A stretch of 64,000 bases of DNA from Tenacibaculum sp. Bg11-29. Its GTDB lineage: Bacteria > Bacteroidota > Bacteroidia > Flavobacteriales > Flavobacteriaceae. The position numbers were made by a program, and so were the translations under genes. The stretch spans positions 2,293,001 through 2,357,000 of the forward strand of contig NZ_PJBB01000003.1 of assembly GCF_002836595.1 (NCBI RefSeq). The letters are read 5' to 3'. Positions 30,431 through 34,477 of this stretch are shown in pieces; within the stretch, counting starts at the first letter, position 1; every line of letters begins with the position of its first letter. The notes under the pieces were generated by a model that was not told the origin of the DNA, made no database searches, and saw nothing but the letters and a program-made list of their open reading frames with translations.

Positions 30431-31090
30431 TTAAACAATATAATTTCGAACTCCAAAAATAGCACTACCAATTCTTACCATATTACTACCATTTTTTATA
30501 GCTAATTGATAATCACCACTCATTCCCATTGAAAGAATAGATAATTTTGAATTTTTTTCTTGGTTTTTACTGAAAAAGTTAGCTAATGAGGTAAATTCGT
30601 CCTGTAACTGTTCTTGATTGTCAGTAAAAGTGGCCATTCCCATAAAGCCTACAACTTTTATATGCTGTAATTCAGAAAATTCTTCAGAAGATATAATTTC
30701 ATCAATATCTAAAAAGGACAATCCGAATTTAGTTTCTTCTTTAGCAATACGAGCCTGTAACAAGCAGTTTATTACTCGATTGTGTTTTTTTGCTTGTTTG
30801 TTAATTTCTTTAAGTGTTTTAAAACTATCTACACCGTGAATTAAATTAACAAAGTGGGCCATGTATTTTACTTTGTTACGTTGTAAATGCCCAATCATAT
30901 GCCATTTGATATCTTTTGGCAAAGCATCAAACTTTGTAACCATTTCCTGAATTTTGTTTTCACCAAACACGCGTTGTCCTGCATCGTATGCTTCTTGAAT
31001 ATCAGCAATAGGTTTGGTTTTAGAAACAGCAACTAGTGTTACGTTTTCTGGTAATTCGTTTTTTATAGTAAGTAAATTCTGAGCAATCAT
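30431..31090 (-). CDS. YggS-family PLP homeostasis protein
   Basis: A 219-residue single-domain protein of the alanine-racemase N-terminal fold without racemase activity, which binds pyridoxal phosphate and keeps its level steady. The Schiff-base lysine lies in VAVSKTKP (about residue 25). VFGENKIQEMVTK, WHMIGHLQRNKVKYM and LSMGMSGDYQLAI with MVRIGSAIFG are the family signatures. It lies in a leftward run with serC and the SerA homologue, enzymes that use or produce PLP-linked substrates. Confidence 0.93.
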   Translation of the reverse strand: MIAQNLLTIKNELPENVTLVAVSKTKPIADIQEAYDAGQRVFGENKIQEMVTKFDALPKDIKWHMIGHLQRNKVKYMAHFVNLIHGVDSFKTLKEINKQAKKHNRVINCLLQARIAKEETKFGLSFLDIDEIISSEEFSELQHIKVVGFMGMATFTDNQEQLQDEFTSLANFFSKNQEKNSKLSILSMGMSGDYQLAIKNGSNMVRIGSAIFGVRNYIV

Positions 31091-31120: not shown

Positions 31121-32359
31121 CTAAAATTCATAAATAGTTAAAGCACTTCTTAACTTAGGTTCTATATAGGTTGTTTTTGGAGGCATTAACATATCTGCAT
31201 CAACAATTTCTTTCAGTTCATTTATTGTTGTTGGTAGCATTCCAAAAGAAACTTTAAAATCCCCACTATCAACTTTTGTTTTTAATTCTAAACTATCAGA
31301 CTTGTCTTGTGAGTATAGTATTTTAGATGCGTTTCTTATATCTTTAAGACCTAATATTGGTTTTAAAATTGTTTGATATAAAATTTGAGCATCTAATTTA
31401 CTTAAAGTATCTGTAAATTCATAAGCTGATTTACGTAAATGCAAGGCGTAAAATTCACCATTTAAATACATGGTGAATTGATGTTTCTCTTTAGGTCTGT
31501 ATAACTCTTGCCCTCTGTTTTCTATTCTAAAAAAAGCATCTAATTCAATTAAAAACTCTTCAGGAGTTAGTCCGTTTAAATCTTTTATAAAACGATTAAA
31601 TTCATAAATACTTAGTTGACTTTCGGGTAATAAATAGCTCATAAAAAAGTTATAATTTTCATTACCTGTGTGTTTTAAATTTTCTTTAGCTAAGTTTTTA
31701 GCTAATAAACAAGAAGAGGTAGAACGATGATGCCCATCGGCAATATATAAGGTGTTTATTTCAGCGAAAGCGTTTGTTATTTGTTCAATATCATTCTTAT
31801 CATCAACAAGCCAAAGTAAATGAGCATCTTTATCGGTAGTTGAAAATTCGTATTCAGCTCTATTAGCTCGATATTTTTCAATAACTGAAGTAATGCTATC
31901 ATTGTCAGGGTAGGTAAGTAGTACAGGTTCTGCGTTAAACCCTGTGTTTTTCAAATAGGTTTCAAATAATAACTCTCTTTCTTTAAGTGTACCTTCGTGT
32001 TTTTTAATATTATTGTTATGGTAATCTTCTACTGAAGTCGCAGCAATAATTCCGCAAAAAGAATTCGTTGGTGTTGTTTTTTGATAAATATAAAAACCAG
32101 GAGTTTTATCTTTTGTAAAAATACCATCTTCTTTAAATTCTAAATAACGATTGTGCACCAGTTTAAAACGTTGATCGCCTGTAATGTCTTGTTTATGATA
32201 TTTATAACCAGGGTTTATAACATGTAAAAATGTATATGGGTTAAATGCTAATTTTGCATTTAACATTTCTTGGGAATAAATTTCATATGATTTAGACGAA
32301 ACCATGGCTACTTTATCTCTAGTAGCTCTTACTGCTTTAAAAGGTTTTACAATAGCCAT
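31121..32359 (-). CDS. DUF1015-family protein
   Basis: A 412-residue protein of the DUF1015 family, recognised by its start AIVKPFKAVRATRDK, by the central LYIADGHHRSTSSCLLA motif and by PFTFLHV-like segment NPYTFLHVINPGY. The family is common beside serA/serC in Bacteroidota and Firmicutes; it has been proposed to act as an HPr-like or ATP-dependent serine kinase (SbnI-like). Here it follows the SerA homologue by ten bases. A serine-related activity is an attractive reading but unproven. Confidence 0.8.
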   Translation of the reverse strand: MAIVKPFKAVRATRDKVAMVSSKSYEIYSQEMLNAKLAFNPYTFLHVINPGYKYHKQDITGDQRFKLVHNRYLEFKEDGIFTKDKTPGFYIYQKTTPTNSFCGIIAATSVEDYHNNNIKKHEGTLKERELLFETYLKNTGFNAEPVLLTYPDNDSITSVIEKYRANRAEYEFSTTDKDAHLLWLVDDKNDIEQITNAFAEINTLYIADGHHRSTSSCLLAKNLAKENLKHTGNENYNFFMSYLLPESQLSIYEFNRFIKDLNGLTPEEFLIELDAFFRIENRGQELYRPKEKHQFTMYLNGEFYALHLRKSAYEFTDTLSKLDAQILYQTILKPILGLKDIRNASKILYSQDKSDSLELKTKVDSGDFKVSFGMLPTTINELKEIVDADMLMPPKTTYIEPKLRSALTIYEF

Positions 32360-32369
32360 TAAAATGTAT

Positions 32370-33326
32370 TTATATGTGTAACGATTCTATGATTTTGTTA
32401 GCTAACTCTACACCTGTTTTATGCTGTGATTCGATTGTATTTGCAGCTATATTGGGACTTAAAGATAATTCAGGATTCATTAATAACTGAATTTCAGGTT
32501 TTGGCTGATTTTCAAAAGTATCTAAAGCAGCATATTGTACTTTTCCACTTTCGATAGCTTTTATTAAAGCAATTTCATCTACTAAACCACTTTGCGCAAC
32601 ATTAATAAAGCCAACACCATCTTTCATTTTTTCAAATTCTTTAACTCCAATTAAATGGTTTTCTTGAGCTTCTAAATGTAAACTTATAAAATGTGCTTCT
32701 TTTAAAAGTTCATCTGAACTAATTAAATCAATTTCAAAATCAAGTATTTGTCCGTTATAAAATTCAACAGGAATTGTTATCGTATTTTCATAATTAACGT
32801 CGTAACCAACAACCTTCATTCCTAAACCTAAGGCTATTTTAGCAACTTGTTGTCCTGAGGTACTCATTCCTATAATACCTAATGTTTTTCCTCGTAATTC
32901 AGTACCGTTAGAGAATTGCTTTTTAAGGTTATTAAAATTCATATCACCTTCTAAAGGCATTTCGCGGTTTGCTTGATGTAAAAAACGAGCCATACCTAGC
33001 AAATGTGCAAAAACAAGTTCTGCAACAGCATTGGCACTAGCATCAGAAATATTTACTACTTGTACACCACATTCTTGGGCATAGGCAACATCTATATTAT
33101 CGTTGTTACTACTTGCGTTTGCAATTAATTTTAAACTTGGGCAATTGTCTATAAGTTCAGAATGAATTTCTGTGTTATTTTTAATAATGATTGCGTTAAT
33201 TCCTTCATCATTAATAAAATTATCTAGTTGCTCTTGAGCAACTTTAGTTGCTATTACTTCAAATCCTGCATTTTCTAAAGTAGATTTTCCACTTTCTGAT
33301 ATTCCGTCGTTTGCTAATATTTTCAT
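32370..33326 (-). CDS. SerA-like D-2-hydroxyacid dehydrogenase homologue, catalytic residues lost
   Basis: A 318-residue protein with the fold and length of the short flavobacterial 3-phosphoglycerate dehydrogenase, and in the right place, downstream of serC. The defining residues are replaced. Catalytic Arg of NxARGG is Gln245 (INVAQSGLVDE). Catalytic Glu of VFxxEP is Gln274 (TFENQP). Catalytic His of TPHIG is Asn292 (SPNIAANT). The Rossmann loop GxGxxG is GMSTSG (153-158). The substrate loop usually GRGGVGMDNID is ANASSNNDNID (69-79). The frame is open and the rest is well kept, so it looks like a selected pseudoenzyme, not decay. Normal dehydrogenase activity is very unlikely. Confidence 0.85.
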   Translation of the reverse strand: MKILANDGISESGKSTLENAGFEVIATKVAQEQLDNFINDEGINAIIIKNNTEIHSELIDNCPSLKLIANASSNNDNIDVAYAQECGVQVVNISDASANAVAELVFAHLLGMARFLHQANREMPLEGDMNFNNLKKQFSNGTELRGKTLGIIGMSTSGQQVAKIALGLGMKVVGYDVNYENTITIPVEFYNGQILDFEIDLISSDELLKEAHFISLHLEAQENHLIGVKEFEKMKDGVGFINVAQSGLVDEIALIKAIESGKVQYAALDTFENQPKPEIQLLMNPELSLSPNIAANTIESQHKTGVELANKIIESLHI

Positions 33327-33412: not shown

Positions 33413-34477
33413 TTATGCTTTTCTTTCTAGTTCTTGCATTACATCTACCAAAGCTTGTACGCTATATAAAGGTAATGCGTTGTACATGCTTGCTCTATAT
33501 CCACCAACACTTCTATGACCATCTAAACCATTAATATTGGCTTCTTTCCACATCGTATTGAATTTATCTTTTAAATTAGTGTCAGTTAAGTTAAACGTAG
33601 CGTTCATATGGCTTCTGTCTTCTTTAACAACTACTCCTTTAAAAAGAGAATTTCTATCTATTTCATTATATAAAAGTGCCGACTTTTGTTCGTTTACTTT
33701 TTCTATAAATTTAATTCCACCTAAATCTTTTAACCATTTTAACGTTAACATTGAAGTATAAACTGCAAAAACAGGAGGAGTGTTAAACATACTATCTTTA
33801 TCTATAAAAGATTGATAGTTTAACATTGAAGGGATAACACGTTCTACTTTTCCTAAAATATCATTTTTAATAACGACTAGGGTAGTACCTGCAGGACCCA
33901 TATTTTTTTGTGCACCTGCATAGATTAAATCAAACGTTGAAAAATCTAACTGACGTGAAAAAATATCAGAACTCATATCACATATTAATGGAACATTAAC
34001 TTTTGGGAAATTCTTCATTTGTGTTCCGTAAATAGTGTTATTACTTGTGCAATGAAAATAATCAACATCACTAGGAACTTGATATCCTTTAGGTATATAA
34101 TTAAAATTTTTATCTTTTGACGAAGCGACTTCAACTAGTTCTCCAAATAATTTAGCTTCCGTAATCGCTTTAGAACTCCAAGTACCTGTGTTTAAATATG
34201 CCGCTTTTTTATTTAATAAATTATAGGCAGTCATTAAAAACTGAGCACTAGCTCCACCTTGTAAAAATAAGGCAGTATAACCTTTGTTTTCTAAACCTAA
34301 CAATTCTAAAGCTAAACTTCTTGCGTTTTCAATTACATCAACAAAAGGTTTACTACGATGTGATATTTCAATTAAAGAAAGATCATCGTTATTAAAGTTT
34401 ATAATGGCTTCAGAAGCTTTTTTTAAAACTTCTTCTGGTAAAATACAAGGACCTGCGCTAAAGTTGTGCTTTTTCAT
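33413..34477 (-). CDS. serC: Phosphoserine aminotransferase SerC
   Basis: PLP enzyme converting 3-phosphohydroxypyruvate and glutamate to phosphoserine; it can also serve PLP synthesis by making 4-phosphohydroxythreonine. The 354-residue protein starts KKHNFSAGPCILPEEVL, has FLQGGASAQF, CDMSSDIFSR, and YAGAQKNMGPAGTT with the Schiff-base lysine, and HRSVGGYRASMYNA near the end. All key residues are intact, in contrast to the SerA homologue downstream. Its upstream neighbour is the LuxC-like gene, 54 bases away. Confidence 0.95.
   Translation of the reverse strand: MKKHNFSAGPCILPEEVLKKASEAIINFNNDDLSLIEISHRSKPFVDVIENARSLALELLGLENKGYTALFLQGGASAQFLMTAYNLLNKKAAYLNTGTWSSKAITEAKLFGELVEVASSKDKNFNYIPKGYQVPSDVDYFHCTSNNTIYGTQMKNFPKVNVPLICDMSSDIFSRQLDFSTFDLIYAGAQKNMGPAGTTLVVIKNDILGKVERVIPSMLNYQSFIDKDSMFNTPPVFAVYTSMLTLKWLKDLGGIKFIEKVNEQKSALLYNEIDRNSLFKGVVVKEDRSHMNATFNLTDTNLKDKFNTMWKEANINGLDGHRSVGGYRASMYNALPLYSVQALVDVMQELERKA

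Follow-up and report, generated by a model that had tools for sequence, protein, structure and literature searches.

The marine bacterium Tenacibaculum sp. Bg11-29 carries, next to its serC, a gene for a short homologue of SerA, the 3-phosphoglycerate dehydrogenase (PGDH), in which the catalytic residues are gone, and the question raised by this locus is what such a protein is kept for. The window, i.e. the whole stretch of 64,000 nucleotides analysed here (contig NZ_PJBB01000003.1, positions 2,293,001 to 2,357,000), holds the gene as an open reading frame, and all coordinates below are counted from the first letter of the window. An earlier note on this DNA had described the loss of the catalytic Arg, Glu and His and proposed a pseudoenzyme with a new role. 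The alignment confirms the loss: Gln, Gln and Asn stand in the three positions, and both the GxGxxG motif and the substrate loop are broken. The protein, hereafter pseudo-SerA, and its altered sites are as follows (aa, amino acids).

32370..33326, minus strand: short SerA homologue without catalytic triad (pseudo-SerA), 318 aa, by profile and alignment
33102..33122, minus strand: former substrate loop ANASSNN, residues 69-75, replacing GRGGVGM
32853..32870, minus strand: nucleotide loop GMSTSG, residues 153-158, second Gly of GxGxxG gone
32592..32594, minus strand: codon 245, catalytic Arg to Gln
32505..32507, minus strand: codon 274, catalytic Glu to Gln
32451..32453, minus strand: codon 292, catalytic His to Asn

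Pseudo-SerA belongs to the D-2-hydroxyacid dehydrogenase superfamily by its matches to PF02826 (129.8 bits, cut-off 25.1) and PF00389 (71.7 bits, cut-off 24.6). With short SerA proteins of these families, such as P. horikoshii 1wwk, it shares the length, both domains, the fold, a full-length alignment and a nearby serC, but it lacks their triad, the second Gly of GxGxxG and the substrate loop. The Arg, Glu and His of an active member of the superfamily are thus replaced by Gln245, Gln274 and Asn292, and in the nucleotide loop Gly153 and Gly158 are retained and Gly155 is lost. The earlier note had also considered that the catalytic residues might lie at shifted positions; the alignment shows that they have not been displaced and rules this out. 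Hydride transfer is not expected, since the active-site triad is replaced and the loops are rebuilt, and by its sequence pseudo-SerA fits the definition of a pseudoenzyme, an enzyme homologue without catalytic residues. Its score against TIGR01327 is 213.8 (cut-off 454); as this model spans 525 positions, an intact relative (P0025) also falls under the cut-off with 295.3. An identity as PdxB (4-phosphoerythronate dehydrogenase) was rejected, with a score of 80.3 against NF001309 (cut-off 434), and a search for plasmid relatives in the plasmid collection gave no match.

Triad loss and constraint across the genus

Short SerA was found, with no internal stops, in all 136 Tenacibaculum and Polaribacter genomes of the genus sample (at least 85% complete, whole-genome search), and 137 copies were read, those of the 136 genomes and one of a less complete genome (G033); serC lies nearby in all 137 loci. 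Arg, Glu and His are intact in 75 copies and changed in 62, where changed means that one or more of the three are lost: one residue in 17 copies, two in 23 and all three in 22. There are 19 residue combinations among the changed copies, e.g. QQN (12), HQH (7), KEN (7), KQN (6), QEH (5), KEH (4) and KEK (4). The 22 nearest relatives of pseudo-SerA among the 120 matches listed (P0002-P0023, 71-97% identical) all carry triad loss, and in the clade of 23 that includes pseudo-SerA, Gln274 and Asn292 are found in 23 of 23 and position 245 is Gln in 18 and Glu in 5. These clade counts are of 23 clusters; an earlier count of 33 rows included near-identical rows from two sources. Triad loss is a clade trait, not an isolated mutant. 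The named-genome loci are intact in 76 of 79 cases, the exceptions being Tenacibaculum finnmarkense, T. agarivorans and Tenacibaculum sp. SG-28; one of two peptide patterns matched 578 times, and the loci are the best 80 of those matches, minus L086, in which the matching frame was not found; they come mostly from other Flavobacteriaceae with some Tenacibaculum and Polaribacter, and are not an unbiased outgroup. In an unfiltered draw of 97 genomes, two (G032 and G039) had no match and two (G007 and G088) a distant match only, all four being drafts of 59-75% completeness.

The dN/dS ratio (nonsynonymous to synonymous substitution rates), estimated by Nei-Gojobori on disjoint close pairs, has a median of 0.074 for changed serA (18 pairs, range 0.028-0.155) and of 0.068 for intact serA (23 pairs, range 0.030-0.205), and serC in the same pair sets gives 0.068 and 0.071, respectively; for pseudo-serA and its counterpart in genome G081 the value is 0.058. 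The earlier note had named a dN/dS near 1 together with other damage as the mark of simple decay. The ratio is far from 1 and the frames are undamaged and open, which all but rules decay out, and these sequence comparisons indicate that pseudo-SerA is kept by purifying selection and is not a pseudogene. Between this clade and intact copies dN/dS is 0.14-0.38 among the pairs listed, serC being mostly lower; with dS near or above 1, and hence near saturation, a rough reading is an early burst followed by constraint.

Constraint is also visible residue by residue. Intact copies share 96 conserved columns, and 65 of these remain so in changed copies; D76, D79, N242 and D269 are retained in at least 90% of changed copies, and the clade has fixed residues of its own (K49, A69, N70, Q274, N292, A294 and others). 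Glu274 is replaced solely by Gln (32 of 62 copies), as compared with nine other variable Glu columns, in which Asp occurs in 8 columns, Asn in 4, Gln and Ala in 3 each and Lys in 2; if 6-8 events are taken as random single-base changes, Gln-only replacement by chance has p below about 1e-5. At position 292 the replacement is Asn in 32 of 38 copies, Lys in 5 and Arg in 1. Triad loss, purifying selection and new conserved pocket residues specific to the clade together support the pseudoenzyme reading of the earlier note. Since pseudo-SerA is constrained, it would still be of use to the cell without catalysis, probably in a new, non-catalytic role.

In order to count the losses, the changed or intact label was placed on three trees, all from quick searches with SH-aLRT support only. 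It needs 17 changes on the SerC tree, 6 of them forced by supported (starred) branches, and 16 on the best tree, that of SerC joined to the SerB-SerA-ACT fusion described below, 12 of them forced (984 columns, several rows with only 36% of columns filled). The own tree of short serA, with active-site columns removed, needs 12 changes, 4 of them forced. The trees indicate that the relatives lost the triad separately, several times. Horizontal transfer of serA or the operon between members of the genus can look like independent loss and may lower the count of true losses, though on these data not to one; the counts are undirected, so that some changes could be regains. On the joint tree, intact copies L133 and L137 (G114 and G155) and L012 and L121 (G089 and G116) are nested among changed lineages; losses may be more numerous there, or genes may have been exchanged or regained.

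A separate observation concerns P0024, a 348-aa metagenomic relative of pseudo-SerA, which agrees up to about residue 238 and then continues as unrelated sequence, an assembly chimera or an insertion.

A second phosphoglycerate dehydrogenase

The earlier note had predicted either another serA elsewhere in the genome or a need for serine, and a second serA is indeed present: a 647-aa SerB-SerA-ACT fusion (L002 709-2652), in which a phosphoserine phosphatase, a PGDH and an ACT-like region are joined and Arg, Glu, His and the nucleotide loop (GYGNIG) are intact. Its PGDH region is of the same superfamily as pseudo-SerA (about 29% identity), to which the fusion adds the phosphoserine phosphatase and the ACT domain, the latter read from the C-terminus. 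Because the genome has this second PGDH, able to make serine, catalysis by the short SerA would be dispensable. Two further D-2-hydroxyacid dehydrogenases of the same genome (L003, beside panB, and L004) keep the triad.

The fusion is matched at E 1e-100 or better in 134 of the 136 genomes, G131 and G138 being without such a match (G033 lies outside this search). Among 130 copies retrieved, 126 have the full or nearly the full length, and Arg, Glu, His and GYGNIG are present in 126 of 126; four full-length copies (G056, G067, G069 and G090) lie outside the residue check. A full-length or near-full-length match exists in 61 of the 62 genomes with a changed short SerA, 59 of them residue-checked. 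Six genomes are without a complete fusion, and five of these (G058, G135, G138, G140 and G145) have an intact short SerA; the five are related, and hence represent few independent events. In G140, G058, G135 and G145 (L349, L350, L351 and L352, respectively) the fusion has lost the dehydrogenase domain that binds nicotinamide adenine dinucleotide (NAD); what is left, SerB, a portion of the substrate domain and the C-terminal region, is encoded in a single open frame of 430-455 aa. The sixth, G131 (L210, L357 and L362), is a 1.6-Mb draft, 96% complete, with a short SerA of the NEN type; there, the only trace of a fusion was a stretch of 53 residues, 53% identical and interrupted by stops, and the genome search gave no SerB match. 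It retains serC, the changed serA and the DUF1015 gene described below, and may be a serine auxotroph or show gaps of a draft assembly.

The DUF1015 neighbour and a proposed role for pseudo-SerA

The genes around pseudo-serA, from which a partner may be proposed, are these (PLP, pyridoxal 5'-phosphate).

33413..34477, minus strand: serC, phosphoserine transaminase, 86 bases upstream of pseudo-serA (PRK05355, 462.5 bits, cut-off 253)
31121..32359, minus strand: DUF1015 gene, 10 bases downstream of pseudo-serA, predicted fold that of the free serine kinases SerK/SbnI
31994..31996, minus strand: Glu122 of DUF1015, unchanged throughout the set read, a putative active-site residue of the SerK kind
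31724..31738, minus strand: DUF1015 motif DGHHR, residues 208-212, conserved
30431..31090, minus strand: YggS-family PLP protein, the gene after DUF1015 on the same strand; a neighbour, its membership of the unit putative

The predicted structure of DUF1015 over residues 87-412 matches, by Foldseek, the free serine kinase fold of SerK (archaea) and SbnI (Staphylococcus), and on this model DUF1015 may be a serine kinase. Excerpts of PMC5120207 describe a proposal that in Thermococcus SerK, an aminotransferase and PGDH convert serine to 3-phosphoglycerate, and report that in three Desulfurococcales genes for PGDH and an aminotransferase lie close to serK. The locus studied here differs from the SerK module in that DUF1015 has no detected sequence similarity to SerK and a putative activity only, and SerA is without its triad. 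An excerpt of PMC12704722 names 'DU1015' among ParB-CTPase-fold fusions, i.e. a ParB-fold link of DUF1015 is already in print; by titles, the open-licence literature searched gave nothing on DUF1015 function. A glutathione transferase match of DUF1015 in PDB sequences (E 0.59 and 1.1) was taken as chance.

On these grounds we lean, with modest confidence, towards the view that pseudo-SerA serves a module of SerC and the serine-kinase-like DUF1015, either as a subunit without catalysis or as a regulator that senses a ligand; its inactivity is read from sequence, and its partner and ligand are inferred. The partnership is suggested by the operon order, the co-occurrence (61 of 62 changed copies adjoin DUF1015) and the predicted fold of DUF1015. 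With Arg, Glu and His replaced and the substrate and nucleotide loops rebuilt, pseudo-SerA would no longer carry out hydride transfer, and the fusion would make serine in its place. Acting together, DUF1015 and SerC would connect serine with phosphoserine and phosphohydroxypyruvate; one of these metabolites, or a nucleotide, may be bound without turnover in the altered pocket of SerA. A bolder version, which we hold only tentatively and think rather doubtful, is that a PGDH was turned repeatedly, perhaps a dozen times in one genus, into a non-catalytic sensor or scaffold for a module of SerC and a bacterial free serine kinase (DUF1015) after the fusion took over serine synthesis. The recurrent replacements are amides (Gln for Glu, often Asn for His), and the two PGDHs would trade off. 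The trade-off is proposed because four genomes show the mirror image, the fusion dehydrogenase domain being gone and the short SerA intact.

Several observations weigh against this regulatory role or the steps leading to it. Among about ten independent pairs differing in DUF1015 on the joint tree, five go with loss, none is opposite and five show no difference; after phylogeny the association has a median p of 0.0625 (range 0.016-0.375), borderline and not significant, and on the SerC tree a median p of 0.125. In genome G149 Arg is gone although DUF1015 is absent, and DUF1015 adjoins 32 intact copies as well; the pairing therefore does not require a changed SerA. The TM-scores of DUF1015 against serine kinases are moderate (0.33-0.39 by query, 0.51-0.63 by target), and phmmer and hmmsearch of PDB sequences gave no SerK/SbnI match, which is no proof of unrelatedness. 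The AlphaFold model of pseudo-SerA is weak precisely at residues 117-133 and 269-296. One new ligand common to all lineages also agrees poorly with replacement residues that vary from one to the next. In a larger set of overlapping, non-independent pairs, the median dN/dS is 0.128 and 0.148 for serA and 0.087 and 0.095 for serC, i.e. serA of both kinds evolves faster than serC. Finally, the genes missing from G131 may be gaps of the draft, and in G138, where the short SerA is intact, the SerB model likewise gave no clear match.

The same evidence bears on other explanations. Pseudo-SerA could still be an enzyme for another reaction that needs neither the triad nor tight NAD binding, as the pocket residues newly fixed in the clade are non-random and the four residues D76, D79, N242 and D269 persist; we consider this unlikely, as the replacement sets differ by lineage (QQN, HQH, KEN, KQN, KEK and others), which is hard to square with one chemistry, and all three catalytic positions are uncharged in pseudo-SerA. 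That it is instead a regulatory pseudo-subunit in mixed oligomers with the fusion, tuning serine feedback, is a shade less likely. The helix AELVFAH..R.LHQ.NR.MPLEG, which we take to be the dimer arm of the short SerA family, is among the best-kept parts of changed copies, and nearly all genomes with a changed copy have the fusion match, but the low identity makes mixed dimers unlikely, the genes are far apart, and G131 keeps a changed SerA although only the stretch with stops was found there.

Persistence of a weak or altered hydroxyacid dehydrogenase activity would account for G153, G158 and D176 of the nucleotide site being present in 23 of 23 clade members, one of which keeps the second Gly, and for the 17 changed copies in which a single residue is lost. 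This too seems improbable, given that the clade has lost not only Arg, Glu and His but also the substrate-loop Arg and glycines, and most members Pro219. The explanation we credit least, and regard as largely refuted, is that of a relic made redundant by the fusion, its frame surviving by chance or through operon structure. The intact fused PGDH, the repeated and scattered losses and the four draft genomes of the unfiltered draw in which short SerA was unseen would agree with it; a dN/dS matching that of intact copies and serC, the absence of internal stops in 136 genomes and the Gln-only replacement of Glu274 speak against it.

Catalytically dead Rossmann-type regulators are known from eukaryotes in AHCYL1/IRBIT and plant ANGUSTIFOLIA. 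As in pseudo-SerA, the enzyme fold has been kept in these and catalysis apparently given up, but here the loss recurs inside one bacterial genus. Within a single genus the active site of a core metabolic enzyme has been lost repeatedly, with every stage represented (one, two or three residues gone) beside intact relatives and a redundant enzyme, which makes a natural experiment on how enzymes turn into non-enzymes. The open-licence literature gave nothing on Tenacibaculum with phosphoglycerate dehydrogenase or serine biosynthesis, nothing on pseudoenzymes with hydroxyacid dehydrogenase and, by titles, nothing relevant on pseudoenzymes with phosphoglycerate dehydrogenase; for a serine kinase with SerK, SerC and PGDH together it gave only PMC5120207. 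Excerpts of the GapMind paper (PMC7311316) do not mention the pseudo-SerA gene. Clade proteins are still labelled '3-phosphoglycerate dehydrogenase' in some sources (e.g. P0003, P0004 and P0019), which can mislead metabolic models. For DUF1015, the predicted fold suggests a function, that of a serine-kinase-like protein of serine metabolism.

A role in the PLP pathway was also considered and rejected, PdxJ being found in 136 of 136 genomes irrespective of the SerA state, so that PLP synthesis does not separate the groups. A YggS-family PLP-homeostasis frame is present in 9 of the 79 named-genome loci, whose flank lengths vary. Also, contig C196:64542-66404 of G090, a genome with 7% contamination, carries a second, divergent short SerA (43%) paired with a second DUF1015.
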